DNA from: Undaria pinnatifida
Lineage: Eukaryota; Sar; Phaeophyceae; Laminariales; Alariaceae
Length of the DNA stretch: 64,000 nucleotides
Reading direction: 5' to 3'
Assembly (NCBI GenBank): GCA_012845835.1
Contig: JABAKD010000004.1
Span: 12,277,022-12,341,021 of the forward strand
In this document: positions 1,219-48,891 of the stretch, piece by piece
Numbering within the stretch: the stretch's first letter is position 1
How the letters are laid out: each line of letters starts with the position of its first letter
Translations under genes and position numbers: made by a program
Notes under the pieces: model-generated
What the model was told of the DNA's origin: nothing
Databases searched by the model: none
Seen by the model: the letters and a program-made list of their open reading frames with translations, nothing else

Positions 1219-4200
1219 CTTGAGGTTACGGGTGCGTAGGTTGCGGCGCCTGATCATGTCGAACACGCGCCCCGGGGTCCCCGACACAACCTGATATGTC
1301 CGCAAAAACAACACGGCACCGAACAACACTTCAGCCCACGATTAATATCGGCACGGCACATAATGGGAGGGTGTTCGCTGATTTTACCGATCGCAGCTGA
1401 CATCCGACATAATCCAAACGGAAGTGATCCATCCGGGGTGGGTCCGATCGGTCAACGTAGCAATGAAAACAGCAACAAAAAACGTTGGACCATACACTGG
1501 GCAGATCATTGACAGATCATAGATCCCTGTTGATATTGACAATCTATTTTTCCCTGGGCAGATACTGTATATCCCTGTCAATATGTTCTGCATGATCTAG
1601 GTAATGTTTCCTGGGTTGGATCTGTACTACACAGATCCTGCACAACACACCATAACCACAGATATACGATCAATATGATAAACATGGTATATGTGATATA
1701 TAATCTAATGTATCTATATGATCTATATGATCTGTATTCTTACATGATTTATATGATCCGTAGATGATCTTTATGATCTGTGGATGATTTATATCGTGAT
1801 CTGCCCGATGTGTGCAATTTATAAATACCCTGGAACTTCCGCACGTTTCTGCGGCAATCCAGTGTTTCGACCAAATCGTCCCCCGATACAAAAACACAGT
1901 CAAACAAGATAGCATGGTTGTCGTTACGAATGCGGGCATCAGGATACTTGATACAGTACTTGATACTGTGGTCGGCGGTACCAACAGCCATCTCGAAACG
2001 GGTCCCTATTTTTTGTGTCGTCAAAATGAGAAACTTCCTCCGCGCGTAAAAAAATAACAAATAACCAAGTTCCAATGGGTCTATGCATGAAAAACAATCC
2101 CCTTCCTAACGGCCTAACTCTCTGTAGTAAACCCAACGTTTCGACAAATTTCCGATGAAAGGTTCCCCCCAATGACGCGTGGTGCGATATAGAGGTGACA
2201 CGTTTTGGGCTGAATATTTTCTAATGTTTTGTGTGTTGTGTGTTGTGTTTGGTGTGTTGTGTGTTGTGTGTTGTGTGTTGTGTGTTGTGTGTTGTGTTTT
2301 GTGTTTTGTGTCTTGCGTTTTGTGTGTTGTGTGTTGTGTGTTGTGTGTTGTGTTTTGTGTTTTGTGCCTTGTGTCTTGTGTCTTGTGTTTTTGTGTGTTG
2401 TTTGTTGTGTTTTGTGTGATGTGTGTTGTGTGCTGTGTGTTGCGTGTTGTGTGTTGCGTGTTGTGTGTTGTGTGTTGTGTGTTGTGTGTTGTGTGTTGTG
2501 TTTTGTGTGTTGTGTTTTGTGTGATGTGTGTTGTGTGCTGTGTGTTGCGTGTTGTGTGTTGTGTGTTGTGAACGATGGCGCTCCTTAACCCCCAAAAACG
2601 TTTTTGTTCGTTCGTTCATTTTTGGCAAAACGTTTCGTTTCTTGCTTAGGCCACGGGATTTTTCCAATCGGTATCCGGGAGCACCTTTTCAATTTTCTCC
2701 CAAATCCGTCTTTGGGTTGAGAAAGGTATCGAGATAACTCCTTCATGCTCCTTCATCTTAACAGCCTCAGAAAACAAGAATGGTGCAGCTATACCGTAGC
2801 ATGCCCCCTGTCCTGTACTATGTAGTCGGATATACTCAAGTTCCGAAAAAGAGGGCTAATTAAACGAAGCCTTCGTCTCACCTAATACTTTATGCTGTCG
2901 ACCCGTTTGTCTCCAACACAATACTTCCCCAATACATATCCAAGTAGTACATTAAGCTGCCCTCAACTTGCGAGCGCTGTTTGTCGTCGTTGGCGGCGGC
3001 GACGGTCGCATAAACCGGTTTCATAAGCGATTTCTTTGTAAGCGATTTCTTTGTAAGCGATTTCTTTGTAAGCGATTTCTTCGTAAGCGATTTCTTTGTA
3101 AGCGATTTCTTTGTAAGCGATTTCTTTGTGAGCGATTTCTTTGTAAGCGATTTCTTCGTAAGCGATTTCTTTGTAAGCGATTTCTTTGTAAGCGATTTCT
3201 TTGTAAGCGATTTCTTTGTAAGCGATTTCTTTGTAAGCGATTTCTTTGTAAGCGATTTCTTTGTAAGCGATTTCTTTGTAAGCGATTTCTTTGTAAGCGA
3301 TTTCTTTGTAAGCGATTTCTTTGTAAGCGATTTCTTTGTAAGCGATTTCTTTGTAAGCGATTTCTTTGTAAGCGATTTCTTTGTAAGCGATTTCTTTGTA
3401 AGCGATTTCTTTGTAAGCGATTTCTTTGTAAGCGATTTCTTTGTAAGCGATTTCTTCGTAAGCGATTTCTTCGTAAGCGATTTCTTTGTAAGCGATTTCT
3501 TTGTAAGCGATTTCTTTGTAAGCGATTTCTTTGTAAGCGATTTCTTTGTAAGCGATTTCTTCGTAAGCGATTTCTTTGTAAGCGATTACTTTGTAAGCGA
3601 TTTCTTTGTAAGCGATTTCTTCGTAAGCGATTTCTTTGTAAGCCATTACTTTGTAAGCGATTTCTTTGTAAGCGGTTTCTTTGTAAGCGGTTTCGAAACG
3701 GGTCCCTATTGTCAGGCCTGGTTAGTGTCAAAGACTCGACTCGCATGAACCAATTTCCAAGACAGGGTTGACGAAAAACGGCCCAGTCCTCAGTCCTCCC
3801 ACCTGCACGCCGTAGTCTAGGCGGCGGATGTCCTCCCCGATGCTCTTGCCTCCAATGCAAGCGTGGCACTGCACATTCATGAAGTCACCCAGGGCAAGGA
3901 TCACCTGCTCACACGTCGTGGCGGTTGGCAGTGCGAGCACGGGGATCGGGTTCACAGACGTGCAACGATAGCAAAGAAACAGTTTCCACAACGAAGTCGC
4001 GGTTGGCGTTTTAAACACGCGCGATGCCTTCAGTGCATGCGTGACGCTGCACTTTCATTAAGTTACCCAGGGCAAGAATCGTCTGCTCACACGCCCCCCC
4101 CCTCGAGAAAAAAAAACGGGGTTTCAAGAAACAAAGTCTCGGTTGGCGTTTCGAGCACAGGGACAGGGCGTCATAAGGATGAGGTCTCTCCATCTACCTC

Positions 4201-7200
4201 CCCCTTCTCCAGAAACGAAACCCGTTCCGACTTTAACGTCGCCGGCTTAAAATGTTGTCGGTACACTCCAGAACCATAAAAAAATACAGCATATACACGT
4301 ATAACCATTAACTTCATCACCAAAAAAATGGCCTGTAGAAGATTGCACGAAAGGGGTGAACACGGTCAGCACATACGTTACATCAACAACGCCACCAAGG
4401 CAAAAAAAAACGCAACACTCAGTCCACACACAACAACGAACACAGCACAACGACGAACACAGCACCACATATAGCAGGTACACAAAAATTGACTCAGTCC
4501 AAACAGCAATATATAGACTTACTTAATTTTGTCTTTCTCAGGGATTGCCCATCCCTGGCCTCTCAGACCTCCAACTTCCACATCACTTGCGGAACCTTTC
4601 CAGCTTTTCTTTGCTTTCCAGCTTCGTTCGATATACGAAACGCCAATATAATACTAGTAGTACATACCGGTACTACTACACTTGCGTTGTCGAATGCATT
4701 ACGATGCATTATCTCTGTGTCGTAGCTTGTGACCACAGAGCTGATCTTTCTAGGGTGAAGAATCAGTACGGACACTGGGTGTGCTGGATGTCGACGAGTA
4801 GAAGAACGGTTTAATGTGAAGAACACACACACACACCAGGTTTGTACGTACCATCAGATACTACGCTGTTGGATCACATGCACGCCCAGCTCAGATCAAT
4901 CCGGCTATATATGGCCCAGCAGCGCAGCGTAGCGCCGTGCGGAGCCGTGCGGAGCCATGCGGTGCGGTGCCGTGCCCTTCGCTGCGGTGCTGTGTCGCTG
5001 CGCTGTGTGCTTTCTTTCGAACATAGAGCAGTACCGGGTATAATGCGTGTGTTGTTGTGTACGGAGTACTTCTTTTCCTCTTTTTTCTCTTTCTATAGAC
5101 TATGTATTTGATCTTTCACGGCCCCCTGTTTTTTCCCCCACGCAAATTACCCCCGTACTGCCGATCAGAACGTAACACCGGTAACAAAAGCACACAGCAC
5201 AGCTGAGCACAACAGGGCAATTTGCTCTGCACATGCAGCTCTTGGCATTATCAAATCGCTGTTCGCACCAAATCGTGGGCCTCTTCTTTCTGCCCCATTT
5301 ACATAGTCTATGTTTTTAGTTGCATTCTTCCTTGCCTTGCGCGAGCGTAGCGGGCGGCGTCAGCCGCCCGCGGAGCGGAGCCCTTGTATATAAATAAAAA
5401 AATCCCTAACCTCCTTTGCCTGTTCCGCCAACTCGAGTGTGGGGGATAGCACCAAGGGAGTTCATATTTAATGTACTCAGTTCATATGATACACGCACAA
5501 CAAAAACGCCACCACACATACAAAACCGCCCTCCACCGTACACTCAGTGCAACCAGACACAACGAAAACGCCGCCATACGAAGTAATCACTCTTATCTTC
5601 TGTGTCTCCTCCGAAAAACTCGAATGTGTACGACAGCATCCAAGGCTAAAGAAAAAACTGACAAATACATAGCAAAAACTGTCAGCCACCAAGCACATTG
5701 AAAAATAATAACAAAAAATGCCACCACACACAGTAGTGAAAAGTGCAGCGACAACAAAAATGCACCATACAAAGTAATCACCCTTATCTTCTGTCTGCCC
5801 CGAAAAACTCGCATATGTACGACATCCGAGGCTAACGAAAAAATCGACATATGCATAGCAAAAACTGCCAGCCACCACGCACATTGAAAAAATTACTATA
5901 ATAAAAACGCCACCACACAAAGTGAAAACCGGCAGCAACCGTGTCATACCTTCTGGGTCTGCTCCGCCAGCTCGCGTGTGGGTGACAACACTAGCGCCTG
6001 TGTGTCAGAAGAAGAGGTGTCGAGCATCTGCAGGATACCCATGGAGAACACCGCCGTCTTACCCGTACCAGACTGTCGCAAACAAATAATGCAGTTCAGG
6101 TTGCAGCAAGGAGCAAGAAACAGCGCCAAGCGGAAGAACAATCACTACAAACAGCAACAGCAAGCAAGTGATGGCAGCGGCAAAAACAGCAGGAGGTAGC
6201 AGCAACCTAGCAGAAGCAAAAGCAACAGCAGGTAGCAGCAAACTAGCAAAAACAAAAGCAGCATGAGCTAAAGCGGCGGCAAAACCAGTAAATCAACAAC
6301 AAGCAAGCAGCAGCAGCAGCAAAAGCAGCGGCAGCTAGCAGCGAAAAATCACAAATGTAAAAGCAGCAGCACATCAAAGTGCAAGCAACAACAGCCAGCA
6401 AGCAGCAGGGAACAAATTACAAGTACAAGTCGAGTACGCGAGTATTGCAAAGCAGTACTTGTAAGCAACGCCAGCAAGCGAGCAGCAGCAAACATCATAC
6501 ACGTCGAGTACGCGAATATTGCGTTCCATGGCAACACCATAAGGTACATTCAGATGCTCGTATCAGGGGGAAATCGGTCCACCCCCTTTCCCACCCAATG
6601 TCAGCCTGGTCGATGGAAACCCGACGTGCGCCGCCACGGCATTGAAGGGACGCGAGGGTCCATGGTCCTAACACTTCGGTTTATTCACTATAATGAGTAC
6701 ATCTTCCCCCCCCCCATGCTCGCTGCCAATACAACCCAGCCGGATATAACTCCCCACCACTACGCCCGGCGCATCGTCCCTAAATCCAACAACCCTAACG
6801 CATTAATTTGTGGAACTCCCCTGAGGGAAACATTTTCCGAAGCGACATGGCGATAAAATCACAGTAAAGGAGAAGTGATTACAGCATCGGCTCCACGAAG
6901 CAGGTCTAGCTGTTTTCGCATAGCATTCACGTTTAAGGGTCCGCAAGGGTGGACAAACCTTGACAAGATATTCACGCGGATCTTAACCTCTTTCAGAATA
7001 TCATTCGCGTTTTTTTTTGGGGGGGAACCACCTGGATGATCACCTCGCCATTTAGGGGCTTCGAAGGGAAATGTTGACCAAGAAAACACGCGATTGCAGC
7101 ATCTTTCACACGAAGCAACCCCATCAATGCTAGATTAAACTGAGGACGGTTTTCCAGTCCATCTCCAATGCAGGTACCTGTGAGACATGCGCACAGCTTG

Positions 7201-7992
7201 CACCGCGGTGTGCTGCATGCTCGCACCATGATGACAACTCAGGTATACTGTGTTTTATCGCTGTACATGGACCCCAATAGCGTGGGATGATTTTTTCGTT
7301 GATTGCATGGGGATCCCCTCAAGGGTTAATCCTTTGAAAGCGAACCTTCATTAATAAGATAGAAAATGACAAGGATGGCCAAACTCTCAATGCGAACCTT
7401 GCGCAACAACCTCAAACGTCAGCCTTGCCAAGGAATCCCAATGTGAAGCTTGCCTCATATTCTCAACGCGAAACTTGGGTAACGAATTGTTAATGCGAAT
7501 CTTAATCTTGAGTAACAATCTTATGTGCGAATCTTAATGTTGCGTAATATCATTGAGTGCGAATCTTGCCTGACTTTGGGCGATGACGTCCCGACCGCTG
7601 GTGATGGGCTTGACGGCCCTCTGCTGCACCGCCGACGGCCTCTCGAACCCGTACGCGTACACCCCACGCAGAAGCTCGTCCTTCAGCCCCATCGAGTCGA
7701 AATTCTCCACTACCTGTCCGATCACCATCGCCATCAATCATCGTCAACATCAATCAACATCAGCATCGTCATCGTCAATATAGTAATAACTATACGAGTA
7801 TCATCATTTCAGCACCATCATCACGATCAGCATTTCGCGACCACGACACTTGTACGGTCAGCAGCTTGTCCTTCGGCCCATCGAGTCGAAATCCTCCCCC
7901 ACCTGTCCCATCCATCACCATCGAGCAGTTATCATCGTCGTCATCATCATAACCATCGCCGACATCATATCATAAGCACCAACGAGAGCATC

Positions 7993-8060
<68 letters not shown>

Positions 8061-8064
8061 CATC

Positions 8065-8095
<31 letters not shown>

Positions 8096-8374: not shown

Positions 8375-8754
8375 CTGCGAAAAAAAACAGGGGAAAAAAA
8401 AACGAGCCGACGAGACCATCACCATTCCACACTTGACCAGAAAGGAGCGATTGAACCACTACCACAACATACACAACAAAATCCAAACGACGACTATATG
8501 CAAAACGGAACCAATCCATCCACGACTATGAAGGAGCAAGCTGTTCATACGTCAGGTCTGTCGGCGTTTGCCTCCACCCTCAAGAGCTGCCATAGGCACC
8601 AGGTAAATACTACGAGGTACCGGTGTACAGCATGCACCTCGGTTAAAGAGCGCGAAAGACGAGAGTTTTCGGGACATTTCCCGGCTGTGCTAAAACCTGT
8701 ACCAGGTATACTTTATAAAACTGTTCCAAACAGGTCAGCTGTGATTTCAAAAAA

Positions 8755-9891: not shown

Positions 9892-9893
<2 letters not shown>

Positions 9894-9934
<41 letters not shown>

Positions 9935-9962: not shown

Positions 9963-10055
9963 GCAGTATGTTACGTTGTGCATGTACCTGGGTCATGGAA
10001 TTGGTCATCGGGAATATAGATTTTCAATTTTTCTCAAAAAGTCAGTTTTTGGGGA

Positions 10056-26600: not shown

Positions 26601-29600
26601 TAAACGGCCTATCTGTATGCCACCTCCACCCCCCCCAACCCCAATAAACCGCCTACGCGTCAAACCCAACCCCCAACCCGACACCGCCTTTACCTCTATG
26701 CCAACTCCCCAAGGTACTACCGCTCAGCAACCCTTCGATGGCCGTTCAACCTGATCGTCAACGGAGGAAAGCCGATCAGCTTCATCAACGACCCTTTCTT
26801 CAAGAGCTTTCTGTCATACGACATGATTCTTGTTTCCGTTGACGTTCGCGGCACGGGGGCTTCTTTTGGGACGCACCCGGGGCCCTGGAGCCCCGAAGAG
26901 CAGCAGGTGTCGATTACAGTTACAGTGTTACAGTGGGTACCCCGATTTAACGCCTTTGCAACTGGAAACCCTCTTTTTTGTGCAAAATTGCTTGAAGTTG
27001 GTATAGGGAGGGATTTGGGGGCTCTTAAGGGGTTAAGAGCGCACCGTGACAAGCAAGCCCAAACATGCGCTCTTAATTGCAAAGCGCTCTCATCTGTAGT
27101 GGGCAATATATGGCCTTTAATGTGGCGGGTCATGCCGAGATGACCGCTCTTAACTCCGGAATGGTCTTAACTCGGGGTACCCGTTGTGCACAGCTTTACC
27201 TGTGATGTGTTGACGTTTTTCTTAAAGTGCTTGGTATGTGACAGTATGTGAAAGTATGTGACGGTATGTGATAGTATGTGACAATATGCGACAGTATGTG
27301 ACGGTATGTGACAGTATGTGATAGTATGTGATGGCGTGTGACAGTATGTGATAGTATGCGACAGTATGTGCCAGTATGTGCCAGTATGTGCCAGTATGTG
27401 CCAGTATGTGCCAGTATGTGACAGTATGTGACAGTACGTGATAGTATGTGACAGTATGCGACAGTATGTGACAGTATGTGACAGTATGTGCCAGTATGTG
27501 CCAGTATGTGACAGTATGTGACGTACGTGATAGTATGTGACAGTATGTGATGGTACGTGACAGTATATGACAGTATGCGACAGTATGTAACAGTGTGTGA
27601 CAGTATGCGACAGTATGCGACACACGTGCTATGGTAGAGGTGCGCCATGGTATTTTATAAGATTATTCTAACAACGCCAGCTTTGAGTTCGACGAATTCA
27701 GGGTCGATACTCATCTTTGCAAGCTGCGTATTACATCGATCGCCCGTTTTTAGTAAGTTTCATGAGGCAGGACCTAAAATAAGATGTAATACTTGGATAA
27801 GGTACACCACGATATTTTCTGAGGCTGCTTGTTACGTAAGGAGCTCTGCGCATAATATATATATATATCTTTATCTATATATCTATACGTTGGGTACCCC
27901 GATTCAAGAGCGCCCCGTGACAAGCAAGTCAAACAAGTTAACTACACTTTGCTCTTATCTTTAGTTGGAAATACATACCAGGTAGCTCTTTAGTTATAAG
28001 GCGTGACATGCCGATTTGACCGCTGTGTTGCGTTTCCAATGCTGTTATCGTGGGCACTGTTAAGATCGGTCAAATCGGGGTACCCACTGTATTACTGTAA
28101 TACTGTAATACTGTAATATACGTATTGCGAAGACAACGGACGGCAATCCATCGGTTTTGGGGTAAGGTGAGTAAGGGAGGGAGGGAGTCTCGTCACTCAG
28201 GAAAAAAAATGGCGAAAAAAATCGCAACCTCTATCGTAGGGCGCTTGATGTACCTTAACCACTAGTACCTACTAGTACCTACTAGTACTGCTAGTGCTGC
28301 TACTACTACATATGGCGATTTCGAGAAGCGGATGCAGTCGCCTTGTCTTGCAACGCGTTTCGCTTCTGACCTAGGGCGCGGTGGTGCGGGGTTGCGTCTT
28401 GCGAGCAGGACTCTATGGAGGTGCTGGATTGGATCGACCGTCAGTTGTGGAGCAACGGCAAGGTGGCCTTGTGGGGGGCGAGCTACGAGGGCACCAGCGC
28501 CTTCTTCACCTCCCTGCTGCGACATCCCACCGTGGTATGTATGTATCTGGTATGCTACATACTGCGGAAGTTTGATCGCTATTTTTGTCATCTTCGGTTG
28601 TTTTGTTGTTGTTTTATCGCCTGGTGGTTGTTGTTTGTGCTGTGCCCGAGAACCCTAGCCGTAGATGGGCCTTGTGGGGCGCGAGGTACAATGGCACCGG
28701 CGCATTTTTCACCGCGCGGCTGAGGCATTTCACCGTGCTGCTTCGGGTATCATACAGTTTTTTTTTCTGTTTCTGTTTCTGTTTCTGTTTCTGTTTCTGT
28801 TTCTGTTTCTGTTTCTGTTTCTGTTTCTGTTTCTGTGTCTGTTTTTGTGTTGGTAGCTATGTGTTCGGTTTTTCGCCTCATTCTCCTTTCGAGGTCTATA
28901 AAGCGGTTTCCATCTCCAGCGAGGGGTTTTTCGGGGATGACATCGTGTCATTCCCTTCAGGGGATTTTTTTGCGCACCCTGGCTCATCAATGGTTGTTTT
29001 CCCGACGCGATCTCTCGGACCCTTCAGGTATGCTGCTGCCCGATGTTTTTCTTCTGGGATGTGTTCGATGACGTCTCGCACCCAGGAGGGGTCCCGATGA
29101 AGCACTTCTCCAGTAACTGGCAGGTGCGTTTGCAGCAGACGGCAACGACCTGTCTTCGACAAACGAAAACGGTGCACGTCTTGGTAGCTCGGTCGGATTT
29201 GCCTAAAACGACGCCAGCCTGACTTTGAGAAACGTTTTCTACAGTAGCTAGGGCCGTGGCGGGAAACGGCCAGGACTGCAAACTTGATCATTTTATGGAT
29301 GATGTGTTTGATGGATGGCTATTTTATGGGTGCTTATTTATGATGGGCGATTGTTGGATGGATGGCTATTGAATGGGTGCTTGTTTGATGGATGGTTATT
29401 CGAGGGATGACTGTCTGCGGATTGGATCGTTAGGGGAGGGACACGCATGAAAAGGCGACCGTGACGGCTACAAGAAACCAAAGGAAACGTTACCCGAGGC
29501 GTTTTGGTCCCGATTAGTGTTGGGGCTCTGCGTGTTGAAGCGTTGAACGGTGGCAACTTTTTCCGCCGACGGTGCCGACTAAACCTGCAATTAAACAATG

Positions 29601-32600
29601 CCACTGTGGCCGATAATAGCAATGTATACCTGGTTATATATTTTTTCTTTATTCCATTTATTATCCTGGCACTACTCTCGCCCTCGCTCCCAGCAGTAAC
29701 TCAGATCCGGGGTCACATGGCGGGCCCTCCTCCCCCCTCCCCGCTACGGTAGTGCCTTCATTTTATTGCGAGAAGAATTCGGCATTTTCTTCCCTCGTCG
29801 ACTCGCATCGAATTGTACCTACCCACGCTGCTAGGCGCTCTCAGCAGTTGATCCTTTTTTGTGGTTGTTTTATTTTTACATATAAAGTCAAAGTCTCACC
29901 ACGGTAGGAATCGAACTAAAGGACCAACGCTAGTAGTTAGTATTCGAAGGTAGCCACTAGACCCCCGGGGCGACCGGCCAATATACATATATATGTATAT
30001 GTGTATGTATATATGTATACGTATGTATATGTGCTGTTTGATGTTGAGGCGTGCTACGATAGGCGAAGCACATGTCGGCCATCTCCTCGTCTGAGTAAGT
30101 AGGCAATATCATAGAATAGCATGTGATGTGATGGGCTATTTCAACGTTATGCGCCTACTAAATGTGAATGTATCATAATAGGTGTCATAACTAGTCGTTG
30201 AATCCTTCCGCATACGTAACAGGTGTCGCGACGGGTGTCGCCACGGGTGTCGCGACGCCTATGACCTAGTAATACTGGTACTAGATGCCGTAACGCATCG
30301 TTGAAGGCCTACGCAAACGTGGCAGATGCTACTGCACTTAGTTACAAACCGTTGGTACGTCACAGGTGTCATGACGAGTGTCGCGACGCTTAACACCTAG
30401 TGATATAGGTACCAGATGCCGCAACGCATCGTTGAAGGCCTAGACAAACGTGAAATATGCTACTGCACTTAGTTACATACCATTTTTACGTTACAGGGGT
30501 CATGGCGAATCGCTGAATCCCTGAGCAAACGGGGCAGGTGCTCCGACACTTGGCATTTAGCGATCGGGGAAAACAAATTGGATGTGAGCTGGCTGGCTAC
30601 GTACAAGTCGCCGATTAGCTATTAACTGGCTACTAATGTATAAGGTCGCCCCGGTGGCGTATCAGGTTATCCTCTAGCCTATATAGTGAGTTCGAATCCC
30701 CCCGAGTGCATACTTGTATAAATTCGTGGGGAATTTTTTCTTGTGCACAAATTGACATGCGGAAAACGCGACGACGAATCGCTGAATCCCTGAGCATACG
30801 GGACAGGTGCTCCGACGCTTAGCATTTAGCGATCGGGGAAAACAAATTGGGTGTGAGCTGGCTGGCTATAAGTCGCCGTTTAGCTGTTAATTGGCTACTA
30901 ATGTGTAAGGTCGCCCCGGTGGCGTATCAGGTTATCCTCGAGCCTGGTACAGGTCAGTTTCGTGGGTTTGAATCCCCCCGAGTGCATGCTCGTATAAATT
31001 CGTGGGGACTTTTTTTGTGCACAAATTGACTTGCGGAAAACGCGAGAGCGTGAGTTAGCAACACTCGATGAAAAATCGACGAGCAGTGGGATTGCTGAAC
31101 CCTATGCGCGATAAAGATTGAAGGCAAGAACCGGGGGGGAGAAGGGACGACACCTGTGACCACGGCTTGTCCAGAAGCTGGAAAGTAGAAGTGTGAATAT
31201 ATAATGACAGTATGCTCAGGGATTGAACGATTCGTTATGGCGCCTGTTTTGGCGTATGTGCAGGGGTTCAACGATGCGTTAGACTCTGGTTGGGTGCAAA
31301 GCACGGGGTGGATGGCCAGAATTTTCTTGGAAGGGGTTACTCCAGTCACGCCAGAAGACTCGTGGGGCTACCAGGCCAACCAAGCTATCATCGGGCACAA
31401 GTGAGATTGATCTACGCCTCGGACAAATAGGTCACCATCGAGATGGTCATTTTACCAGGTATAACTGAGTAATGCTCAAGGACGATTCTCATTTGTTGTA
31501 ATTTGCTCGTTTGGCTGCTGTCGACCGTCAGCTACCAGGTATGACTGGAACATCTTTTGGCACGATCGCGTTGGGTACATGTTGCTCTCTCCGCTGTTTT
31601 CAATCGTTATTTACCAGGGATAGCTGGGATACACTATACACTATGCTAACAAATTAGCTCAATATTTCTCTTTCCTCCGTTGTCGACCGTTTTTACCTGA
31701 GGTAACTGAAGCACCCTCGAGGACAATTACGTTTGCTATGTTTTTCTTTCTAGGCTATATCTTGCTCTCTCGGCTGTTGTTGACCGTTACTTTCCAGAGA
31801 TAACTGGAGCATCCTGAAGGACGATCACATTCGCTATATGGACGACACATCCAAGCACACGGGCAGGATGGTTAGCTCCGCTTGCGTTAACCAGGCGGTG
31901 CACGAGCTTCTAGTCGCACAAGGGATCTGTCACGGGTCACCTTCTCAAGGCAAACCCTCCGCAAAGGCTGCAAAGGTATGGTGAACTCGTGCTACAATAG
32001 GGATCGTGACGTGCATTGTTTGTTGCAGTTTTTCCTTCCCAGCGTCCGAACGGTCGATACCCCTCCCCCCCCCGCCTCCTCTCCCTCTTCCTTCCTCTAC
32101 AAGGGAGCGTAAGAGGGCATCGTTTTTACTGATGGTGTGATGAGAGCGGTGTGATGAGAGCGGTGTGATGAGAGCGGTGTGATGAGCGCGGTGTGATGAG
32201 AGCGGTCCAGAAAGGAGCCGCCTGAAACGCGTCACCGTGTCACCTGCACAGTGTTCCGCGATGTCAGGTCCTTTGTCCCAACTATTAATAGTGCGTCCCC
32301 GTTTAGCCCTGCACTCCCGTTTTTGGCGAAAACACACATGGAGTTTTCGACTCTTGCAAGGCTCCCCTTGGGGTGGTGGTTCGCTTCAAATCCCCGGGGG
32401 TGTCTTTGTTAGTAGCTGAAAAGGGAGGGAACACGAAACACTCTAGAGAACGAAATAACAAATATTAGCCACGGACCTGGCGAGTAACCCGGCAAGAACC
32501 ACAGAGTGTTCATAGCTGAAATCGAGTTTGTAGCTTAGTCTACGTATTATTTTGAACAATGGAAAAATAAACTTGAGGTGTGATGATGATGTGTGATGTG

Positions 32601-35600
32601 TGATGTGTGATGTGTGATGGTGAGATCGACCAGAAATGATTTTTTTAATAATACTCGGCTTTGCAAGCTGCGTGTGATCAGTGATACTTCGATCGCGCGT
32701 GTTACGGGGGGTGTATACCCTCGTGGAGGACTACAGGTCGGTGACAGACTCCCCTGCGAATCCAAGGGTCAACAAGACTAAGACGTTCAGCCTTGTTCTG
32801 CTCACGGACCTGTATATCCCGCATTGAGGGGGACAAAACCAGACTTCTGTGGAACTCAAGTATGCATGAAACACGAAGTGTTATAGTGTAAGTTAACTTT
32901 TGAAGTGGGCTACTTGGGTGTGTACCAGGTTTGTGCGCAAGTCCCTGTGTACTCCCTGTGTATGTGGCAGGCCAGCGGAGGTCCAGCTGGTGCTGTCGAG
33001 TCATCATGGAACATGCGGTGGACGCCGATCGCTACTGTTCCGAAGTGATCTCTCTTGTACTCTTGATGCAATGCAACGACTAGGTAGTAATATGTAGTAA
33101 TATGTAGTAATATGTAGTAATATTGACTAATGGTTCATTGTTAGGATGATTTAGGGATTTAGAAGAGGGTTAACACCCCGCCAATGCACAAGTAACACTA
33201 CCTCGCCCCTTCCCCTGCCCCCCTCCCTCCCCGCTCTGCCGCGATTGGGCATGCCCTCTAGGTGTTCAGGTCACCATCGCCAGACAAAGACACAGTCGAC
33301 AACTTGGAGAACAATACCGACCAGTCAGGCGTTGCGTTGATAGAGACAGTGCAGGAGCGAAAACACCCGAACACTCCCCGCGAACCAAAAAAAGCGGCTG
33401 TTTCGGCAGGCGCTCCATTGATAGAGCCAGCGCGGACAGGGGAGGGGGCCGTTGCCGAGAAAAATTTCTTGACGGGCGGCGCAAGCGATACTGGAAGCAC
33501 GGTAAAATCGAGCGTGCCACGTGGGGAGCGGGAACCAACAGGAGTCGAGGAGACCGTTGATGCGGGGGATGCCCAAGGCTGCGGCGGTGCGCCCACTAGA
33601 CGCGGAGAGAATGGTGTAGCTCTGGTGAGTGCTGCGATTTCTGATGGCGCTGTCCTCGGTGAAGGGGTTGGTGAGGGTGGGATGCTTGCTGAGGGGCAAC
33701 AGAGTGGCAGTCTCGACAGGGGACGTGAAAGGAACCATCTAGACAGAGGTCAGAGGCTGGAGGAGACACTGCCGTTTTATCTGCACGTTTCAGGCTGGCT
33801 TGATGCCTCGGCGCACGCGGCAGTGATGGCCTTCATGACGCTCCCGTGCAGGTGGAGTGTGTTTTTTGCTTTTTTTTTATTTGCACGTGCCCGGCTGGGT
33901 CAACCCTTTTACTAACATTGCAATTTTTCATGCACTAATTCCAAGTGGTTTCCCTCCAAAAACGTGGGTGCAATACTTCCAGAAGGAAAGAAGATACCCG
34001 GGCAAACGGACGGTTACAGCATCGACCATACACGAGCATCCCAGCTTTGGGGTATGGGGTGTGTCCGAGCCGTAGCGTAGGGACCTTTCATGATAAGACA
34101 CCGCTGCAGCATGGTGATACTACTATTAGTATTCTACACGTTCTTTCTAGTCGGAAAAACGTCGTTTCTGTCTCTATACTTGAATCAAGATATATTTGAT
34201 ATAATCAAGTCTGAAGGGGGTTAAGGCTTTGGCGTACGCGGCAGTGGTGGCCCTCATGGACCTCCCGTACCGGTAGAGTTTTCGGAATGAAGACAAAACG
34301 ACAGCCGCCCACGTAAAGCTGAACCAAACTGAAGTTTTTTCAGCCGATCGCCCGTAGTAACGCTTTAGACAACTGTGCCTACGTTGTTGAGATGTCGGGA
34401 GCTAATTGCTTGTAGTTGGTGAAAGAGGTGTTTCGCAAGTGGTATAAAAGGGTTAGGCGCTGCATTGCTTCATGTTGCAGCATCAGTCACTGTGCTTGTG
34501 ACGTTTTGTCGATGGTATGTTTTTTATTGGCAGAGGCGCTGAGCTTCTTGTGGGACCGTGGAATCATGGAGGGCACCAGCATGTTCGGCCTCACCACATC
34601 ACCACTATGTCGAAGTGAGTATCAATGGTTCCATACATTGGATAGATCGCGGTCGAGATTATCTACAACATATCCTGTATTTGCCGTTGCGAGATGTTGT
34701 GAAAAAACCGTATCATACAGGTTCACCTGACGTAGATGATCTAGATCGTGCAGATCAACTAGTTGTGGCCTCATCGCATCAGCACCAGATCCAAGCGATT
34801 ATCGTCTTGTCAATGGGGTATGGATGTTATTTGGTTTGCTATTATTAACGGTAAGGTATACCGCAGCCCGTGGCGCCGTTCCCTAGGCCAATTAATTACG
34901 GCGGTGAAACGCGGTGCATGCATTTTTTGTACGTGCTTTTTCTTCCATCGAGATGCTTTGTTAGCCTTTTTTTCGCCACGGCGTAGGTTTTCAGGGAAAC
35001 GAGCTACTACTAATGTGAGAACATCATGGTCACGACAAGGCAATGGTACCTTCCTCCCTTCCTTCCTTCCTTCCTTCGTTCATACATACATCGGACAGAT
35101 CACGATTTAGATCATCTAGATAATAATAGACCATCTCGATCATATACATCGTCTAGATCCTATCGCTGCCGTTATGAGGTGTTGTGCAAGAGCCGTGCCA
35201 GTATCGATCCCTCTTGGCGAACATTCGGGCAAGGGCCGTGTCGTACCGTTCCCACCTTGCTAACATGATGTACGTCGTACAGATCATGCAGTTAGGCCTC
35301 ATCACGTCGCCATCAGGTTCAAGGGAGTATCGCGTTGCTAATGGACGATACGCCAAGGGCTACGCTTTACTGTTGGACTGGCCGAGTTAGTCGTCCAAGT
35401 CGATTACGAGTGCGCTCCTCTCCAGTTGGCTCGGAAGGGGTCAAGGAATAGAAACGTGCGATATTTACAACACAGCTAGTATCTTAAAGCCCCAGCCGGC
35501 ACGGTACCCTCACATGTTGGCCTAAAACGTATTGCTTGTGTTGTAACGATCGCAAGTAGATCCTGAATTATTACGTGTTGTTGCCAACTATTCGGCAGGT

Positions 35601-41600: not shown

Positions 41601-44600
41601 CTAGCTATACAAGCTTCCCCGTCGGAATGTGGTTGGCTTCAAGTCCCGCAGGTGCCGCAAGTTGAAAAGGGGGGGGGTAAAACATTGAAAATCAAATGAA
41701 AAAAATTAGCCACTCGGCACGTAACCCGGCAAATAACACCGACCAGCGCAGACAAGTTTACATATAGCTTAGCCGACCTGGAACTGCGTCCCCGCTATCG
41801 GGGACAAATTATTCGAAAATAGTGTGGCCTATGTTTTGCTGTAGTGAAAGGGTGGGCGTTGCTCAGGGTTGGTGTGTTAATAAGGTTTCAAGCTGTTGCT
41901 CAGATCAGGCGATTCTTGTTGGCGAGGGTCCAGACGGTAGCGGCATTGTAGCGGCATCGTTTTGCTCAGCCTGTGGGGCATTGCTGGCACCTGAGGTTCG
42001 ACATGCAGCTCTCCTGTACCACCGGCATTGCTTTTTTTTTCAGCAACTGCGAGTTTCTAATCTGCAAGGCGCCGAATACCAGGGAGCATTTTCGAGACCA
42101 CTGAAGCCAGGTTGTACTACTGCCGCCGCCGCGGCCGGAAAACAACGCAAACATGTTGCCGACGTTTGCATAGATCCTGCTGGGCGAACTCTTAGCAATT
42201 GCTATGCCATATTTGAGCCTGGAGGCTTTGCTAGCAACTCCCGAGTGTTGGGTTTTAGGCCGGCGGGGCCCGCGATAACTGCCCGGGAAATTGGGATGCT
42301 TTTTTTATGCTGGGCGGTTGCATAGATGTAACCTGATGGTCGAGCGAACCACGAGACCAGCGTTAGCTCTCCGCAACTTTCTAGTGAACTGTGACTTTAG
42401 AGCTCTGTTACGGCAGATACTGAGCGTATAGGCTATTTTTTTTGTGACTGGATTGATTCATCGACCGAGGGTGTACCAACTATGGTTGGGTCCGACGTGT
42501 GTCGGGTATTCTTGGGTATCTTTCGTTAAATGATCCCAGCCCGTATTAGATCATGTCCAAGGCTTTGCATGCTTTTTCTTGTTTTGTCAATGTCGGTTAT
42601 TGGGGGGGGCTAGGAGTTCCCGAACTGCCCCAGAACATCTACAGTAGGTCCTATCCTACTCACACCGCCAAGTTGGAAAGCGTTAAGAGTTCGCGACGCT
42701 GCAGGTTAGTGGAAATGCTTTTGCAGCAGCGCTAGCCACGATATTTGTACACGCAATGTTGGTTAACCCTGTGGCCCCATTTCAGATCGATTCGCGTTAA
42801 CGTCCTTACATATGTGCACATTTGTGCCGTTCGAGGTGCTTGCCCTTTTTCCGCGCGTTGTATCGACGTTTTGTCTCCGTACATGGACACATCTCGCGGT
42901 GTTTGTGGCGGTGTTTGTAGACGACTCCTGCGTACACTTGACGTCAGAGTCAGAGCAATTGACCTATGCGGATGCGCCTTGTGTGGACACCTTTTGTCTG
43001 CTCGTTGTATAGGCGTTTTGCCTCCGCGTATCCGCATGTCGCTGTCTTTTGCGGCAGTATTTATCGATGACTGCGCGAACTTGACGCACGGCCAATGTTT
43101 AAACATGCTGGTGCATTTTGTGTGCCCACCCTTTTTCTGCTCGTTGTATCGGCGCTTTCCCCCCATCTGTCTGTATTTTTCGCCATCTTTGTGGCAGTGT
43201 TTGTAGGTGATGCCTGCGTCAACTTTACGCGCAACCAATGTTACACTTGCCGGTGCACTTTGTGTGCGCACGTTTTCGCAGATGGACGGGCTGCGATCGA
43301 ACCATCTGCGCTTCACCTCTCCTCCGCTTAAACAAGACATGGAGGTACGTCGATGCATACACCACAGGCTACCAATAGTATTACTGTAGTACTACTAATA
43401 GCTATGCCGTTAATATTATGGGGTTAGGGTGGTATTACTAGTACGATAGGGTTGCTGCTAACGCACGTGTCACTTGATGACTTGACAAACTACTGTACTG
43501 TACCGTACTGTATTGTAGTGTATACCCCACTCTGTACGATTCCATGGCGTAGGTGTGCAAGGACGTTTTTTGTAAAACACGCATGATACATTTTCCATAG
43601 ATGTTGGGTAGCTTGTTAATATACTTGTTCTAGTGAAGGAACCCCGCCCTTCATACATAGTGTACCACATAGTGTACCACATAGTGTACCACGGTGTGGT
43701 GTAAACGTGCTGCCTGCTCCTATCGTAGCACCCTCATAGCATACTCGCATGTCATATATGCCGGTACATTCTGGCATATGTTTGAATCGCACAACGCACG
43801 CTGCGTTTAGTCTGATGATACATGCACATTTGAATCACACCGCACGTTCAAGCTGATGTTACATGTAGACAACTGAATCACACAACACACGCTGGATTTA
43901 GCCTGCGCATTCTACTGTAGTTCCTGTTTTGAACGTCGAAACACACTGCGTTTAGGCTGATGCCAGGTCACCCCAAGCGTGATACTTATAGGCACCACCT
44001 TTCTTCAACACGGGCGTGGGCCTTCTCCGACAATTGTCCGCTCTGTTCTCCGCGATTAATCGCACTCGACCGCCTGTATGCCTTTATGGCTTGATGGGTT
44101 TGACAAGAGTGTTACCTTCCTCCGACAATTGTCCGCTCTGTTCTCCGCGATTAATCGCACTCGACCGCCTGTATGCCTTTATGGCTTAATGGGTTTGACA
44201 AGAGTGTTACGTTTCTCCGACAATTGTCCGCTCTGTTCTCCGCGATTAATCGCACTCGACCGCCTGTATGCCTTTATGGCTTAATGGGTTTGACAAGAGT
44301 GTTACCTTCGATGTATGGACAATAGTGTTACCTTAGATGTATGAATGTGTCCATGTAGCGATGTAGATGGCGTTGGCCGGAGTAAGGGTGTGGCTTCCGT
44401 GCTGCAGGACGGTCACAGAACGACGCCTGGTCTGCGAGTGTCCAGCTTGCTTTTCGGGCCCGATGCGCTCGTCGTTCCTTGGACGGTATGTTTTTTTTCG
44501 TTTATTTTATCCGGTGGTATGCTTTTTTGCGCGTGCACGCGCCAGCCAGGGATTGTCGAACTCCCCCCCCCCCACCCCCCCAACCTCAACTTGACCCGTT

Positions 44601-47600: not shown

Positions 47601-48891
47601 CTAACTGACGTTTTATTACTCCTCGATAGAGAGCACATTGTGGGCCACACGCGCATCCGTCAGATTTTAACCTGCAGAACTCCTCAAGTTACCGCACACG
47701 AAACTGCTGTATTACCTAGCCAATTGTTGAATTGCAATTTACTATTGGTTTTAGTTTACCGGGTATCAAATTTGTATACATTATCATAATACTATCAGTG
47801 TGCTATTTGGATATTTAGCCAACTCACAGCCGTAATGTTTTTTGTTCTCAAGCTATCGACGGGTGGACGCGCAGCCTTTGGAGAAGGGCCGTCCTGTGGA
47901 GCTGAAGTTCAAACTCATGCCTACCTCCTTCAAGTTCTTGAAAGGACAGGTATGCATTAGGTATGCATTACATGTACCCAGAAGGACACCTTCTATGCAG
48001 AGCGATATCAGTCCATATCATAAAACAACGTGTTTTTTCAGAAACGATATGGGTCTATGCCGTAGGGCTTGTTCGGCGGCTTGTCGCGGAAAATAGATGG
48101 CTATGAGGCGTCTTGCCGAGAACAGGACCGAATATTTAGTCGAGAGGGCGTCGTTGGAGCTGCGCGAGAGTCGTATAGGTGAGGATAAAAGAGTCGTTGG
48201 ATGGCTACATTTCCCCCTTTCGACTCGATGTTTAGGTTTCACAACAACGCTCACCAACCTTCTCCTCCCCGCGTTGCCTCCGGCGATGGTACGCTCGCCG
48301 TCTCTACGAAACCCTTCAGCGAGTGCACGTGTCCATCAGTGTTGCGGTTATGACAAAGTCGCTGTATGGAGACGTTCTCCTGCTTTGAGGCCATATTACG
48401 ACCATCAACCTTGCCTCCCTCGCCCCTCCCTTTCCCCGCTGTGCATCCGGTGACTCCGTCCCCACCAAACCTTTCAGCGAGTGCGCCTGTCTATCGGAGG
48501 CGCCGACGCTCGCCACTTCCATCCAATCACCCGAGACCTTCCCGACGACCCTACCCCTAACCCTTGTTTGGAGGGACGGGACGGGGTTTCCACCGGCCCG
48601 GTTGTGGATTCGAGACAGACCGTGCCGTCCGTTGTGGGCACGAACGTTGCGGGAACAGGGCAGGGAACAGGCGTCACAAGACGACTTCTACGTGTCCATA
48701 CTGGCGGGGGCTACGCCTCTCGCGTCAGCCTGCCCGTGCCCCGTAGCGACGGAGAAAGTTCTGAACAGCCGGGCAGGGTGGTTGGAGAAGAAACCAGAGG
48801 AAGGAACCTAAACGGGAGAGCGGGGATCGATAGCGAGGGTCGTGAGGTGGACTGCCAGGGCGCGAGGAACAACGGTGCGTGTGTGTTTTAG
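17692..48891 (+). CDS. Membrane-anchored CocE/NonD (S15-type) alpha/beta hydrolase, 19 exons over 31 kb
   Basis: Serine hydrolase of the X-Pro dipeptidyl-peptidase/cocaine-esterase superfamily; the substrate is unknown. Exons: 17692-18005, ~22576-22651, 25223-25299, 26714-26906, 28409-28534, 29028-29123, 31264-31400, 31798-31975, 33262-33851, 34534-34614, 35599-35740, 36732-37259, 39994-40605, 41320-41454, 43282-43344, 44748-44842, 46352-46465, 47853-47949, 48478-48891. Phases agree throughout, giving about 1355 residues. Exon 1 encodes a Ser/Pro-rich tail and a membrane segment (about 76-101) behind basic residues, suggesting a type II anchor. Then come RDGVK, HQARYYRS, DVRGTGASFG, the nucleophile in WGASYEG (~S245), acid in GWLDA (~D580), GPWNHG (~H607), and the C-terminal jelly-roll (RFTSPPL, VTGYPVVSLWV, YVTEGCFRAEHR, LSIGGADARHF). 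Exons 9, 12 and 13 (176-204 codons) add Ser/Glu/Gly-rich insertions foreign to the family. Exon 2's start and any exon between 1 and 2 are uncertain. Confidence 0.9.
17710..17880 (+). repeat. In-frame 84-bp tandem duplication inside hydrolase exon 1
   Basis: 'gctggttcgaa' at 17710 recurs at 17794, exactly 84 bases (28 codons) later. The peptides AGSNPAPPHRPSSSSTS and AGSNPSPRRISSSTVSTS are clearly related, as are the Ala-rich ends. The duplication lies in the predicted cytosolic tail, ahead of the membrane segment. Confidence 0.8.
19150..19216 (+). repeat. tRNA-derived SINE (family S2), head fragment
   Basis: Contains the B-box-like 'gagttcgaatccccccgagtgcat' and 'cgtataaattcgtgggg', identical in wording to 30700-30740 and 30968-31010. 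The body is missing here; repeat R1 follows directly. Confidence 0.75.
19241..19500 (+). repeat. Dispersed repeat family R1, long copy
   Basis: Shares with 32640-32870 a series of collinear blocks: 'ctttgcaagctg.gtgtga', 'gatcgcg.gt.ttacggg', 'aggtcgg.gac..actcccct', 'gagggggacaaaa.c.ga' and 'ctgtgga'. It lies in the first hydrolase intron. No coding capacity is visible. Confidence 0.75.
19500..19860 (+). repeat. G-rich duplicated segment
   Basis: 'cctgtaagt.g..aacc.gt.aggggagggcgga' at 19490-19525 recurs at 19620-19650. It is followed by long poly-G tracts (19670-19690, 19800-19817) that could form G-quadruplexes on the plus strand. It is intronic. Confidence 0.6.
20510..20675 (+). repeat. 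SINE family S2, body fragment
   Basis: Shares 'atgctgaaccctctgcgcgataacaatgaaggcac' and 'cacggcttgtccag' with 31080-31190 and 63505-63610. The tRNA-like head is absent. Confidence 0.75.
20725..20790 (+). repeat. 7-bp tandem repeat (atcaatc)n
   Basis: Roughly eight 'atcatca/aatcatc' heptamers, slightly degenerate at the 3' end. Confidence 0.9.
20780..21480 (+). repeat. Decayed tandem array, units of about 120-150 bp
   Basis: Five units repeat the order 'gcgaccaatgct..aatcgt', 'ctttttaccg', 'tttctcc.tct', 'actcacgc.a.ggcaa' and 'gcgaa'. It lies within the first hydrolase intron, upstream of exon 2. Confidence 0.75.
21680..22575 (+). repeat. Tandem array abutting hydrolase exon 2
   Basis: About five units of 170-250 bp share 'gaagag.tcgaa.gcgtttcgctggcgaa', '.cgaacgactggtgggggctgcacgcc' (near 21765, 22150, 22325, 22520) and variable runs of 'tttttcgttttcg'. 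The last unit runs directly into exon 2. It is another case of an array ending at a splice acceptor, although here a copied exon segment is not clear. Confidence 0.7.
22771..23606 (+). repeat. 5-bp satellite (CCCGA)n, about 835 bp
   Basis: Around 165 perfect 'cccga' pentamers with two one-base register shifts (near 22860 and 23440) and a terminal 'cccgg' variant block. All frames are open on both strands (DPTRP / GRVGS) because the pentamer has no stop. It lies in the hydrolase intron between exons 2 and 3. Confidence 0.98.
23610..25222 (+). other. Remainder of hydrolase intron 2
   Basis: No exon is seen. It contains an A/T-rich 'tactatata' repeat (23870-23965), short telomere-like 'ccctaaccctaa' and 'gggttaggg' pieces (24960-24990, 25090-25105), and segments with weak similarity to 6580-6660 ('tgtc.gcctgg.cg.tgg.aacccgac'). 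Confidence 0.5.
25620..26713 (+). repeat. Array of decayed copies of hydrolase exon 4 5' end with acceptor
   Basis: The true exon opens after 'ccaactccccaag' at 26714 (GTACTACCGCTCAGC...). Copies with the same acceptor and exon start occur at 25665 (which matches about 60 bases of exon), 25967, 26267, 26371, 26456 and 26543, with weaker ones near 25834 and 26130. The basic unit is about 85-170 bp and includes 'aaaccgcctatatatctatgccaactcccaag'. Copies carry frame changes and stops, so they look like decayed exon edges and not alternative exons. Only the copy at 26714 continues into VDVRGTGASFG. Confidence 0.9.
26931..27186 (+). mobile_element. MITE-like element M1, copy 1
   Basis: About 255 bases bounded by inverted ends: 'cagtgggtaccccgattta' on the left and the complement of 'caacgggtaccccgagtta' on the right. 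It has no coding capacity. It lies in the hydrolase intron between exons 4 and 5; the related copy M1-2 is 700 bases downstream. Confidence 0.8.
27235..27625 (+). repeat. 10-bp satellite (acagtatgtg)n
   Basis: About 38 units of 10 bases with gcg, cca and tga variants. It is open in three minus frames (TYCHILSHTV) because 10-base units cycle through all frames. It is not a gene. Confidence 0.97.
27695..27755 (+). repeat. Dispersed repeat family R1, fragment
   Basis: Contains 'agggtcgatactcatctttgcaagctgcgt' followed by 'cgatcgcccgt', as at 8758 and 19255. Confidence 0.7.
27891..28087 (+). mobile_element. MITE-like element M1, copy 2
   Basis: Inverted ends 'tgggtaccccgatt.aa' and the complement of 'gtgggtaccccgatttga'. 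The interior shares 'ccgtgacaagcaag' and 'cat.ccga..tgaccgct' with M1-1. It is about 200 bases, shorter than copy 1 through internal loss. Confidence 0.8.
28655..28745 (+). repeat. Decayed copy of hydrolase exon 5 3' half
   Basis: About 200 bases downstream of the true exon, the plus strand reads WALWGARYNGTGAFFTARLRHFTV, against VALWGASYEGTSAFFTSLLRHPTV in exon 5. The nucleophile serine is replaced by arginine, so this copy could not be catalytic. It lies in the following intron, immediately before a (TTTCTG)n tract. Confidence 0.9.
28759..28842 (+). repeat. (TTTCTG)n hexamer microsatellite
   Basis: Thirteen to fourteen 'tttctg' hexamers. Confidence 0.97.
29650..29977 (-). mobile_element. 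tRNA-derived SINE, family S1, minus-strand copy
   Basis: On the minus strand it begins with GGTCGCCCC, an A-box-like GGTCTAGTGGCTACC and a B-box-like AGTTCGATTCC, then a body matching the plus-strand copy at 51730-52075 to its end ('ggatctgag..actactgggagcgagg'). It is inserted in the hydrolase intron after exon 6. The head does not close a proper acceptor stem, so it is a SINE and not a tRNA gene. Confidence 0.85.
30506..31030 (+). repeat. 262-bp tandem duplication containing a SINE S2 head
   Basis: The segment starting 'gcgaatcgctgaatccctgagca' near 30510 is repeated from near 30773, including 'gatcggggaaaacaaattgg' and the whole 'ggtcgccccggtggcgtatcaggttatcctc' SINE head (30648 and 30908). 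Similarity is high, so it is a fairly recent duplication. Confidence 0.85.
30904..31208 (+). mobile_element. tRNA-derived SINE, family S2, full-length copy
   Basis: The head has GGTCGCCCCGGTGGCG and a B-box-like GGTTTGAATCCCC. It is followed by 'cgtataaattcgtgggga' and a body with 'attgctgaaccctatgcgcgata...gaaggcaag' and 'cacggcttgtccag'. The body core is shared with S1 (aatgctgaa..ct..cgcgataaaaacgaaggcac), so the two families are related. It ends about 55 bases before the acceptor of hydrolase exon 7. Confidence 0.8.
31441..31797 (+). repeat. Array of decayed copies of hydrolase exon 8 5' end
   Basis: The true exon opens at 31798 after 'gttactttccag' with AGATAACTGGAGCATCC and later GACGATCACATTCGC. 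Copies of acceptor plus exon start occur at 31459, 31539, 31618 and 31702, spaced 79-96 bases, each followed by a version of 'ctcaaggacgat.ac.tt'. The whole intron between exons 7 and 8 is four such units. Confidence 0.9.
32340..32530 (+). repeat. Possible tRNA-derived SINE family S3, copy 1
   Basis: Shares with 41605-41775 'gt.gtggttcgcttcaaatccc..ggtg', 'agctgaaaaggg', 'aa.attagccac', 'cgtaacccggcaa.aacca.cga' and a final 'tatagcttag'-like string. The 'gcttcaaatcccc' phrase resembles a B box. It lies in the hydrolase intron after exon 8. Confidence 0.6.
32640..32870 (+). repeat. Dispersed repeat family R1, long copy
   Basis: Collinear with 19241-19500 as described there. It lies in the hydrolase intron between exons 8 and 9. 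Confidence 0.75.
33857..34280 (+). repeat. Decayed copies of hydrolase exon 9 3' end
   Basis: Downstream of the exon end (33851), the first copy, 100 bases along, reads FYLHVPGWVNPFTNIAIFHAL, against FYLHVSGWLDASAHAAVMAFM in the exon. A second copy, 421 bases along (34225-34278), reads AYAAVVALMDLPYR against AHAAVMAFMTLPCR. The catalytic Asp of GWLD is lost in the first copy. Both lie in the following intron. Confidence 0.85.
34759..35345 (+). repeat. Decayed copies of hydrolase exon 10 3' end and donor
   Basis: The exon end 'ggcctcaccacatcaccac...cgaagtgagtatc' (34587-34621) recurs as 'ggcctcatcgcatcagcaccagatccaagcgattatc' at 34767 and 'ggcctcatcacgtcgccatcaggttcaagggagtatc' at 35295. The offsets are 180 and 708 bases. 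Surrounding intron phrases ('gatgatctagatcgtgcagatca') are repeated too. Confidence 0.8.
35755..35815 (+). repeat. (CTTGTT)n hexamer microsatellite
   Basis: 'cttgttcttgttctt' repeats, degenerate at the edges; intronic, just after the exon 11 donor. Confidence 0.85.
35845..36335 (+). repeat. Minisatellite, about 43-45 bp unit
   Basis: About eleven units of 'ggtactcgcgagtactcagtcatttcagctcgaagtactcca'. The palindrome 'tactcgcgagta' is inside most units. It is open in several frames but has no protein character. It lies in the intron between exons 11 and 12. Confidence 0.95.
36548..36635 (+). repeat. Decayed copy of hydrolase exon 12 5' end
   Basis: 'ctattggacgtgccgccagttg' (36553-36574), 'cctctacagtaccgtt.acggctccccgcacgccctcgcccgatgga' (36578-36623) align with 36714-36735 and 36749-36794 around the exon 12 acceptor, at offsets of 160-171 bases. 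The Ser-Pro-Asp-Gly phrase of the exon is retained at DNA level in the copy. Confidence 0.8.
37307..39236 (+). repeat. 10-bp satellite (ctgatagtac/ccgatagtac)n, about 1.9 kb
   Basis: Close to 190 decamers, with c/t, acc/agc and one-base (taggtag) variants. A mosaic of variant types gives longer-range similarity blocks of several hundred bases (compare 37546-37760 with 38040-38240). Minus frames of 365-540 codons are open (GTIGYYQVLS), produced by a 30-base super-period. It fills most of hydrolase intron 12. Confidence 0.98.
39298..39405 (+). repeat. 11-bp tandem repeat (tcaactgatag)n
   Basis: About ten degenerate 11-base units adjoin the 10-bp satellite and share its 'ctgatagt' word, so the two arrays are probably related. 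Confidence 0.85.
41605..41775 (+). repeat. Possible tRNA-derived SINE family S3, copy 2
   Basis: Matches 32340-32530 in collinear blocks, including 'gtggttggcttcaagtccc', 'gttgaaaaggg', 'aaattagccac', 'cgtaacccggcaa' and 'atagcttag'. It lies in the hydrolase intron between exons 14 and 15. Confidence 0.6.
42045..42170 (+). repeat. Dispersed repeat shared with 47268-47390
   Basis: 'gcaactgcgagtttctaatctgcaaggcgccgaataccagg' resembles 'gcgaatgcgggtttctaatttgcacggcgccaagtgctagg' at 47272, with further scattered matches. The longer open frame here (41822-42325) shows no domain I can name. Confidence 0.5.
42812..43281 (+). repeat. Tandem array, 142-148 bp units, ending at the hydrolase exon 15 acceptor
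   Basis: Units starting near 42823, 42972 and 43120 each contain 'tgtgtg..cacctttt.tctgctcgttgtat.ggcg' followed by 'tttgtggcagtgtttgta.atgactgcg'. A fourth start at 43262 ('tgtgtgcgcacgttttcgcag') is the functional acceptor of exon 15. The polypyrimidine tract and AG were therefore multiplied upstream of the exon. Confidence 0.85.
44023..44312 (+). repeat. Three near-identical 95-bp tandem units
   Basis: 'caattgtccgctctgttctccgcgattaatcgcactcgaccgcctgtatg' starts at 44031, 44126 and 44221, with only one or two differences between units. It is probably recent. It lies in the intron before exon 16. Confidence 0.97.
45185..45300 (+). mobile_element. MITE M1-related internal fragment
   Basis: 'ttaacgcctttgcaactgg', 'gtgaagttggtat.gagggattt.ggggctct.aaggggttaagag' match the left part of M1-1 (26955-27040). 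The inverted ends are missing. Confidence 0.75.
46179..46290 (+). repeat. Interstitial telomeric repeat (CCCTAA)n
   Basis: About fifteen ccctaa hexamers, mostly perfect, with degenerate flanks (cccaac, cctgac). The other strand is (TTAGGG)n. It lies inside the hydrolase intron between exons 16 and 17, so this is internal DNA and not a chromosome end. Shorter pieces occur at 24960, 44690 and 25090. Confidence 0.95.
48246..48345 (+). repeat. Decayed copy of hydrolase exon 19 5' end
   Basis: 'acccttcagcgagtgcacgtgtccatcag' (48311-48339) matches 'acctttcagcgagtgcgcctgtctatcgg' at the exon 19 acceptor, 158 bases downstream. The upstream flanks ('ctcctccccgcgttgcctccgg') match as well. Confidence 0.85.

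Follow-up and report, generated by a model that had tools for sequence, protein, structure and literature searches.

Decayed local copies of exon edges in the introns of two genes of the brown alga Undaria pinnatifida

Introduction

In human and rice, short tandem duplications are one of the main kinds of insertion mutation, and internal gene duplication in eukaryotes is reportedly treated by Gao and Lynch in 2009. Those duplications and the ones described here are alike in lying on the same strand, close to their source and at a scale of tens to hundreds of bp. The difference is that ours come from a brown alga and are recognised by the decayed exon edges they contain.

Splice junctions have been caught up in such events in potato and in Drosophila. 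In potato, a tandem duplication spans an intron–exon boundary, and the same gene carries an intron-only tandem duplication of 83 bp (PMC4974935). In Drosophila, exon duplication has been described together with intron gain (PMC2891723). As far as the available part of the potato account goes, the seaweed locus resembles it in that the duplication unit crosses an intron–exon boundary and an intron-only duplication occurs in the same gene. The potato duplication, however, created a new spliced intron, whereas the seaweed copies are decayed, lie within existing introns and show no sign of use; unlike the potato case, they also form serial arrays and affect several exons per gene. With the Drosophila cases, as outlined in that source, they share local tandem duplication near splice motifs, but the seaweed intron ends that were tested match a duplicated exon segment no better than the null maximum. 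At the level of titles and the opening lines of abstracts, we found no description of serial decayed exon-edge arrays in the literature, which is no proof of their absence.

Results

The locus and its two genes

The window analysed is a stretch of 64,000 nt from Undaria pinnatifida, positions 12,277,022–12,341,021 of the forward strand of contig JABAKD010000004.1. Whole-genome searches covered 511,146,479 bases in 68 contigs. The window holds an eIF4A3 gene on the minus strand and a gene for a CocE/NonD-type hydrolase on the plus strand. Four joined eIF4A3 exons align with eIF4A-III chains in the PDB over 145 residues in a single stretch. Pieces of the hydrolase match PF02129 and PF08530, and the hydrolase draft has its best protein relative, 71% identical across half of the draft, in Ectocarpus fasciculatus. 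The exon edges of both genes were placed by homologues. The hydrolase exon list is incomplete, with a gap at 34.6–39.9 kb, and earlier exon numbers map onto the present ones only partly.

Several other repeats lie between the hydrolase exons. There is a minisatellite of a GACCC unit at 22773–23603 (0.8 kb), another of a 10-bp unit at 37311–39235 (1.9 kb), and a telomere-like interstitial (CCCTAA)n array at 46174–46285. By eye, a similar translated segment appears in hydrolase introns at about 26930–27080 and 45206–45340, 18 kb apart, and is possibly a dispersed repeat. A scan of viral contigs with the query P0003 found no relative.

Copies of exon edges in the introns

Twenty exons, each with 25 bp on either side, were compared by Smith–Waterman alignment to the flanking 2.5 kb in both directions, with simple repeats masked. 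Comparisons with flanks of the window's other exons supplied the null (n = 536), whose top score was 18.5. Ten of the 20 exons scored above that maximum, each on one side only. Hydrolase exon H1 was set aside from the ten because its acceptor is not known and its match lies away from the splice edge. Nine of the remaining 19 exons then beat all 536 null comparisons, again on one side each: H2, H4, H5, H8, H9 and H10 of the hydrolase and X2, X3 and X4 of eIF4A3. In the inverted control, 1 of 40 comparisons exceeded 18.5 (H7, score 20). Two further exons, eIF4A3 X5 and the last hydrolase exon, scored above 18.5 with wider queries of ±60 bp; the null maximum comes from the ±25 bp queries and was not recomputed for these.

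In eIF4A3, all features are on the minus strand. Exon X2 (7570..7713; placed by homologues, Smith–Waterman and the PDB match) is copied on its acceptor side, its 5′ end and acceptor recurring in decayed form at 7859..7923 (89% identity, lag 193). This exon has a GC donor (CAG/GCAAGA) instead of GT. The 3′ end and donor of X3 (5950..6072; homologues and Smith–Waterman) recur at 5409..5452 (77% identity, lag 539), with a further weak copy at 5549..5638 (score 19, 72% identity, lag 352). For X4 (3803..3904; homologues and Smith–Waterman) it is the 5′ end and acceptor that are found again, at 4025..4093 (84% identity, lag 178). X5 (1219..1290; homologues) has a decayed copy of its 3′ end and donor at 743..808 (74% identity, lag 424), which scores 24 with the ±60 bp query and 17.5 with ±25 bp.

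The hydrolase, on the plus strand, has the serial arrays. Upstream of H2 (DEVLTNDWWGLH; 22477..22651, homologues and Smith–Waterman), four decayed copies of the 5′ end and acceptor make up an array at 21708..22351, with units at 21708–21789, 21878–21964, 22095–22177 and 22252–22351 and lags of 193–760. The array before H4 (YYRSATLRWPFN; 26714..26906, homologues and Smith–Waterman) extends over 25618..26559, with at least seven decayed copies of the 5′ end and acceptor plus one intron-only unit, at lags of 170–1046. A third array, of four decayed copies of the 5′ end and acceptor of H8 (31798..31975, the 3′ edge taken from consensus), occupies 31446..31737 with lags of 97–340. The remaining copies are not serial to this degree. 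The 3′ end of H5 (28409..28534; homologues and Smith–Waterman) is copied at 28668..28737 (80% identity, lag 203), and that copy stops at the donor. H9 (33757..33851; homologues and Smith–Waterman, the 5′ edge not fixed) has a decayed copy of its 3′ end and donor at 34218..34279 (77% identity, lag 421). H10 (34534..34614; homologues and Smith–Waterman) has two of its 3′ end and donor, a weak one at 34745..34803 (score 19.5, 69% identity, lag 182) and a second at 35288..35331 (score 21.5, 77% identity, lag 709). The last exon, starting at 48478, has a decayed copy of its acceptor and 5′ end at 48250..48337 (score 29.5).

For comparison, the hydrolase introns also contain tandem duplications of intron sequence only. 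Those at 30243..31045 have lags of 131 and 269 bp and 85–87% identity, and a young triplication of a 95-bp unit at 44008..44309 has 94–99%.

The copies overlap or abut the splice site. The exon-edge copies in the introns of both genes are thus real, and the first-pass annotation, which had reported them from the letters of the sequence, is confirmed on this point. Its period of 80–200 bp holds for most successive acceptor copies. Donor-side lags run from 182 to 709, and there is no sharp period in the 9-mer lag spectrum described below.

Local repeats as a general background

The copies were set against a sample of 324,400 bases (308,000 + 16,400), made up of the window and 31 further loci with DEAD-box, helicase-C or kinesin exons. 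Of 252 listed exon matches (52 + 70 + 130), the 75 that fell inside sampled loci were used. Exon edges outside the window were picked by script from consensus, not from transcripts.

At lags of 30–2500 and scores of at least 20, local direct repeats make up 12.6% of the unmasked sequence in these 324 kb and inverted repeats 3.4%. At scores of at least 25 there are 251 merged direct pairs against 14 inverted pairs, the latter unmerged. The lags of the 251 direct pairs are commonest at 60–210 bp and peak at 150–180. When shared 9-mers are counted without a threshold, their number declines gradually between lags of 20 bp and about 1–2 kb, with at most a small rise at 160–180, and the direct-to-inverted ratio is 4.7–8.3 at lags of 20–200 bp and 0.9 at 2–3 kb. 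Of 263 random non-exonic segments of 200 bp, 24% are accompanied by a direct copy less than 2.5 kb away and 7% by an inverted one.

Within the window, local direct repeats account for 14.2% of eIF4A3, 25.6% of the hydrolase and 11.8% of the sequence outside both genes, so that the hydrolase introns are about twice as rich in them as the rest of the window. Since the repeats occur outside both genes and throughout the sample as well, the process is a general one. Locus L035 (5 kb), with 51% local direct repeats, ranks highest of the 32 stretches and has acceptor-side copies of a helicase exon; at locus L026, some matches may represent a duplicated exon and not an edge copy.

As a gauge of head-to-tail adjacency along the full unit, the ratio of repeat length to lag is at least 0.8 in 72 of the 251 pairs and below 0.5 in 136, where the intron halves may be too decayed for alignment. 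Among the pairs listed, nine adjacent ones have at least 85% identity.

Paralogous exons spoiled a cross-locus null for the whole sample, and therefore the top inverted score, 20.5, served as threshold. Twelve of 49 exon cores exceed it; that 0 of 98 inverted comparisons do so is true by construction.

Are splice junctions special?

The most serious competing idea is that duplication across splice sites is a specific process and a main route of intron growth and birth, either because junctions are preferred or because duplicates formed there are preferentially kept. The serial arrays at 22477, 26714 and 31798 are striking and speak for it. The first-pass annotation inferred such a main route of intron growth, and perhaps of intron birth, and proposed comparing exon-edge similarity with that at other intron positions. 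In a BLAST-based version of that comparison there is no excess: local direct repeats enclose the junction at 15 of 135 edges, as against 72 of 571 intron points (17/121, 16/123, 13/113, 12/109 and 14/105 at 150, 300, 500, 800 and 1200 bp).

A more sensitive test used Smith–Waterman alignment of 120-bp windows with the threshold of 20.5. It dropped 19 of the 135 edges, which lacked a 2-kb flank, and excluded control points that touched known exons, were too masked or lacked flank. Scores above threshold were obtained at 21 of 116 edges (inverted, 1), 110 of 852 intron controls (inverted, 14) and 3 of 68 exon interiors. The edges are ahead of the controls at thresholds of 16.5–30 (for example, 24/116 vs 122/852 above 18.5), but above 40 they fall behind (5/116 vs 47/852). 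Leaving out the H1 donor gives 21/115 against 108/842, a ratio of 1.42 (Fisher P = 0.11). Outside the window, edges exceed controls by a factor of 1.59 (bootstrap interval over loci, 0.64–3.52) in a small sample of 31 loci and three protein families. Neither test on the 324-kb sample, BLAST-based or Smith–Waterman, gives a clear junction hot spot.

These point estimates of 1.4–1.6 do lean towards the junctions. However, a crude neutral simulation, with uniform ages and the exon half conserved, already gives 1.2–1.4; its prediction is 1.23–1.36 where 1.42 is observed, and the simulated excess arises because decay affects just one side of the exon half. The junction excess is not clearly beyond what conservation of the exon predicts. 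A moderate excess at junctions is possible, and the bootstrap interval leaves room for a threefold one, but the data do not need a junction-specific mechanism.

The amounts involved are also modest. Exon-edge copies make up about 6% of the roughly 29 kb of unmasked non-coding DNA in both genes (1,759 of 28,989 bp, a total that includes a little exon, the hydrolase exon list being incomplete). The 1,759 bp are 1,797 less 60 for H1 and 66 for 743–808, which is outside the counted interval, plus 88 for 48250–48337. It would thus overstate the case to describe the introns as built from exon-edge copies, and the claim that duplication across splice sites is a main route of their growth is not supported. 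That local duplication contributes visibly to the growth of non-coding DNA is a reasonable statement.

The birth of introns by duplication of an AGGT-containing segment was tested on 15 introns with both neighbouring exons known (30 comparisons, null n = 420). No intron end resembled the opposite exon above the null maximum of 16.5 in any of the 30 comparisons, and 2 of 30 exceeded the null 95% level of 11, where 1.5 are expected. The single comparison that equals the maximum belongs to the 397-bp intron beside the array at exon 31798. AGGT duplication is accordingly rejected as the origin of the tested introns, and the suggestion that tandem duplication is perhaps also a route of intron birth finds no support in them. 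On all these grounds we regard a dedicated junction route as improbable.

Fate of the copies and splice use

Decay was followed in 51 copies at 26 edges from the window and the sample. In the 35 copies whose alignment takes in 10 or more exon columns, 81.7% of 1753 exon columns and 78.1% of 916 intron columns are identical. The larger number of exon columns fits a conserved exon half, though weakly, because the query held up to 80 bp of exon against 60 bp of intron and because of selection on the exon columns.

The copies might instead be functional, as alternative acceptors or donors, as decoys, or as recursive-splicing points for the stepwise removal of long introns. Several units do have AG followed by GT, and AAG followed by GT is kept in 5 of the 7 H4 copies. 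AG is retained in 17 of 22 aligned acceptor copies, but this is close to the 14 of 22 that identity of about 80% predicts, and the 10 donor copies (GT in 6, GC in 2) are likewise near the prediction from that identity. Among the 20 copies in the window with an aligned junction, none would give an in-frame, stop-free extended exon, the extension lengths being approximate and cassette-exon use lying outside this test; productive exon extension to the copied splice sites is therefore rejected for them. Furthermore, 94 of 115 edges have no copy above threshold. A function of this kind is very unlikely.

Locality of the arrays

About 5% of the species searched have documented introners (PMC9860276), and one might suspect that such copies derive from an introner-like or other mobile element, from retrocopies or from paralogous exons that have decayed. 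The whole-genome search, which skips very common words and scores seeded candidates only, answers otherwise. The H4 edge, as a 151-base query, found itself and three places, all within 25629–26790 of the window, and the H2 edge, as a 117-base query, found itself and three places, all in its own locus. Many dispersed copies in different genes, the hallmark of introners and transposable elements, were not found for the H2 and H4 arrays anywhere in the genome, and a mobile element is rejected as their source. The X4 edge matched no place but its own; the decayed copy of this edge did not seed. Each exon is copied for itself, with no shared element, and the copies contain intron sequence, which a retrocopy would not. 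This family of explanations has very little probability left. Chance similarity or assembly error is less credible still, the cross-locus and inverted controls ruling out chance for the strong cases (nine exons score higher than any of the 536 null comparisons, against 1 of 40 in the inverted control) and the window copies that align over 10 or more exon columns being, at 64–92% identity to the exon part, too diverged for duplicated haplotigs.

Discussion

The copies are on the same strand as their source, nearby and decayed, and two of the arrays are confined to their locus; an origin by local tandem duplication, which the first-pass annotation had also put forward, is therefore supported. 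Neutral local tandem duplication, with the exon edges conspicuous since the exon is conserved, is probably the explanation of the whole pattern. The non-coding DNA of this alga would keep gaining short direct copies of the sequence next to them, from tens to hundreds of bp long, and these would afterwards decay neutrally. By chance, some of the duplication units would cross a splice junction. Provided that the functional splice site stayed proximal to the exon, the extra copy would land in the intron, where it would be cheap and free to drift, and further slippage or unequal exchange would turn some copies into arrays. The physical cause may be end joining of staggered breaks or replication slippage. 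Selection would hold the exon constant, and its copy would stay recognisable for longer than copies that are intron throughout; therefore exon edges would seem a favoured source.

There is a caution in this for other work, as exon edges can appear to be special sources of intron sequence merely by being the conserved reference. The same property makes decayed edge copies a rare handle on intron growth: because selection fixes one member of each pair, the age of a duplication can be read from the unconstrained partner. The copies also suggest tolerance of junction-spanning duplications, provided that the splice site proximal to the exon is retained.

For the brown algae, the mean intron is 1,057 bp in Saccharina against 703 bp in Ectocarpus (PMC4421812). 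Local duplication could contribute to the longer introns of Saccharina, a kelp, an attribution that the available part of that paper does not itself make. We put forward, tentatively and as something we consider rather doubtful, that short local duplications arise at an unusually high rate in brown algae, or in kelps in particular, that they are a leading source of non-coding growth there, the longer kelp introns included, and that the edge copies are built-in clocks. If that is true, then with one partner held constant, the rates of both duplication and decay would be readable from the exon-edge copies.
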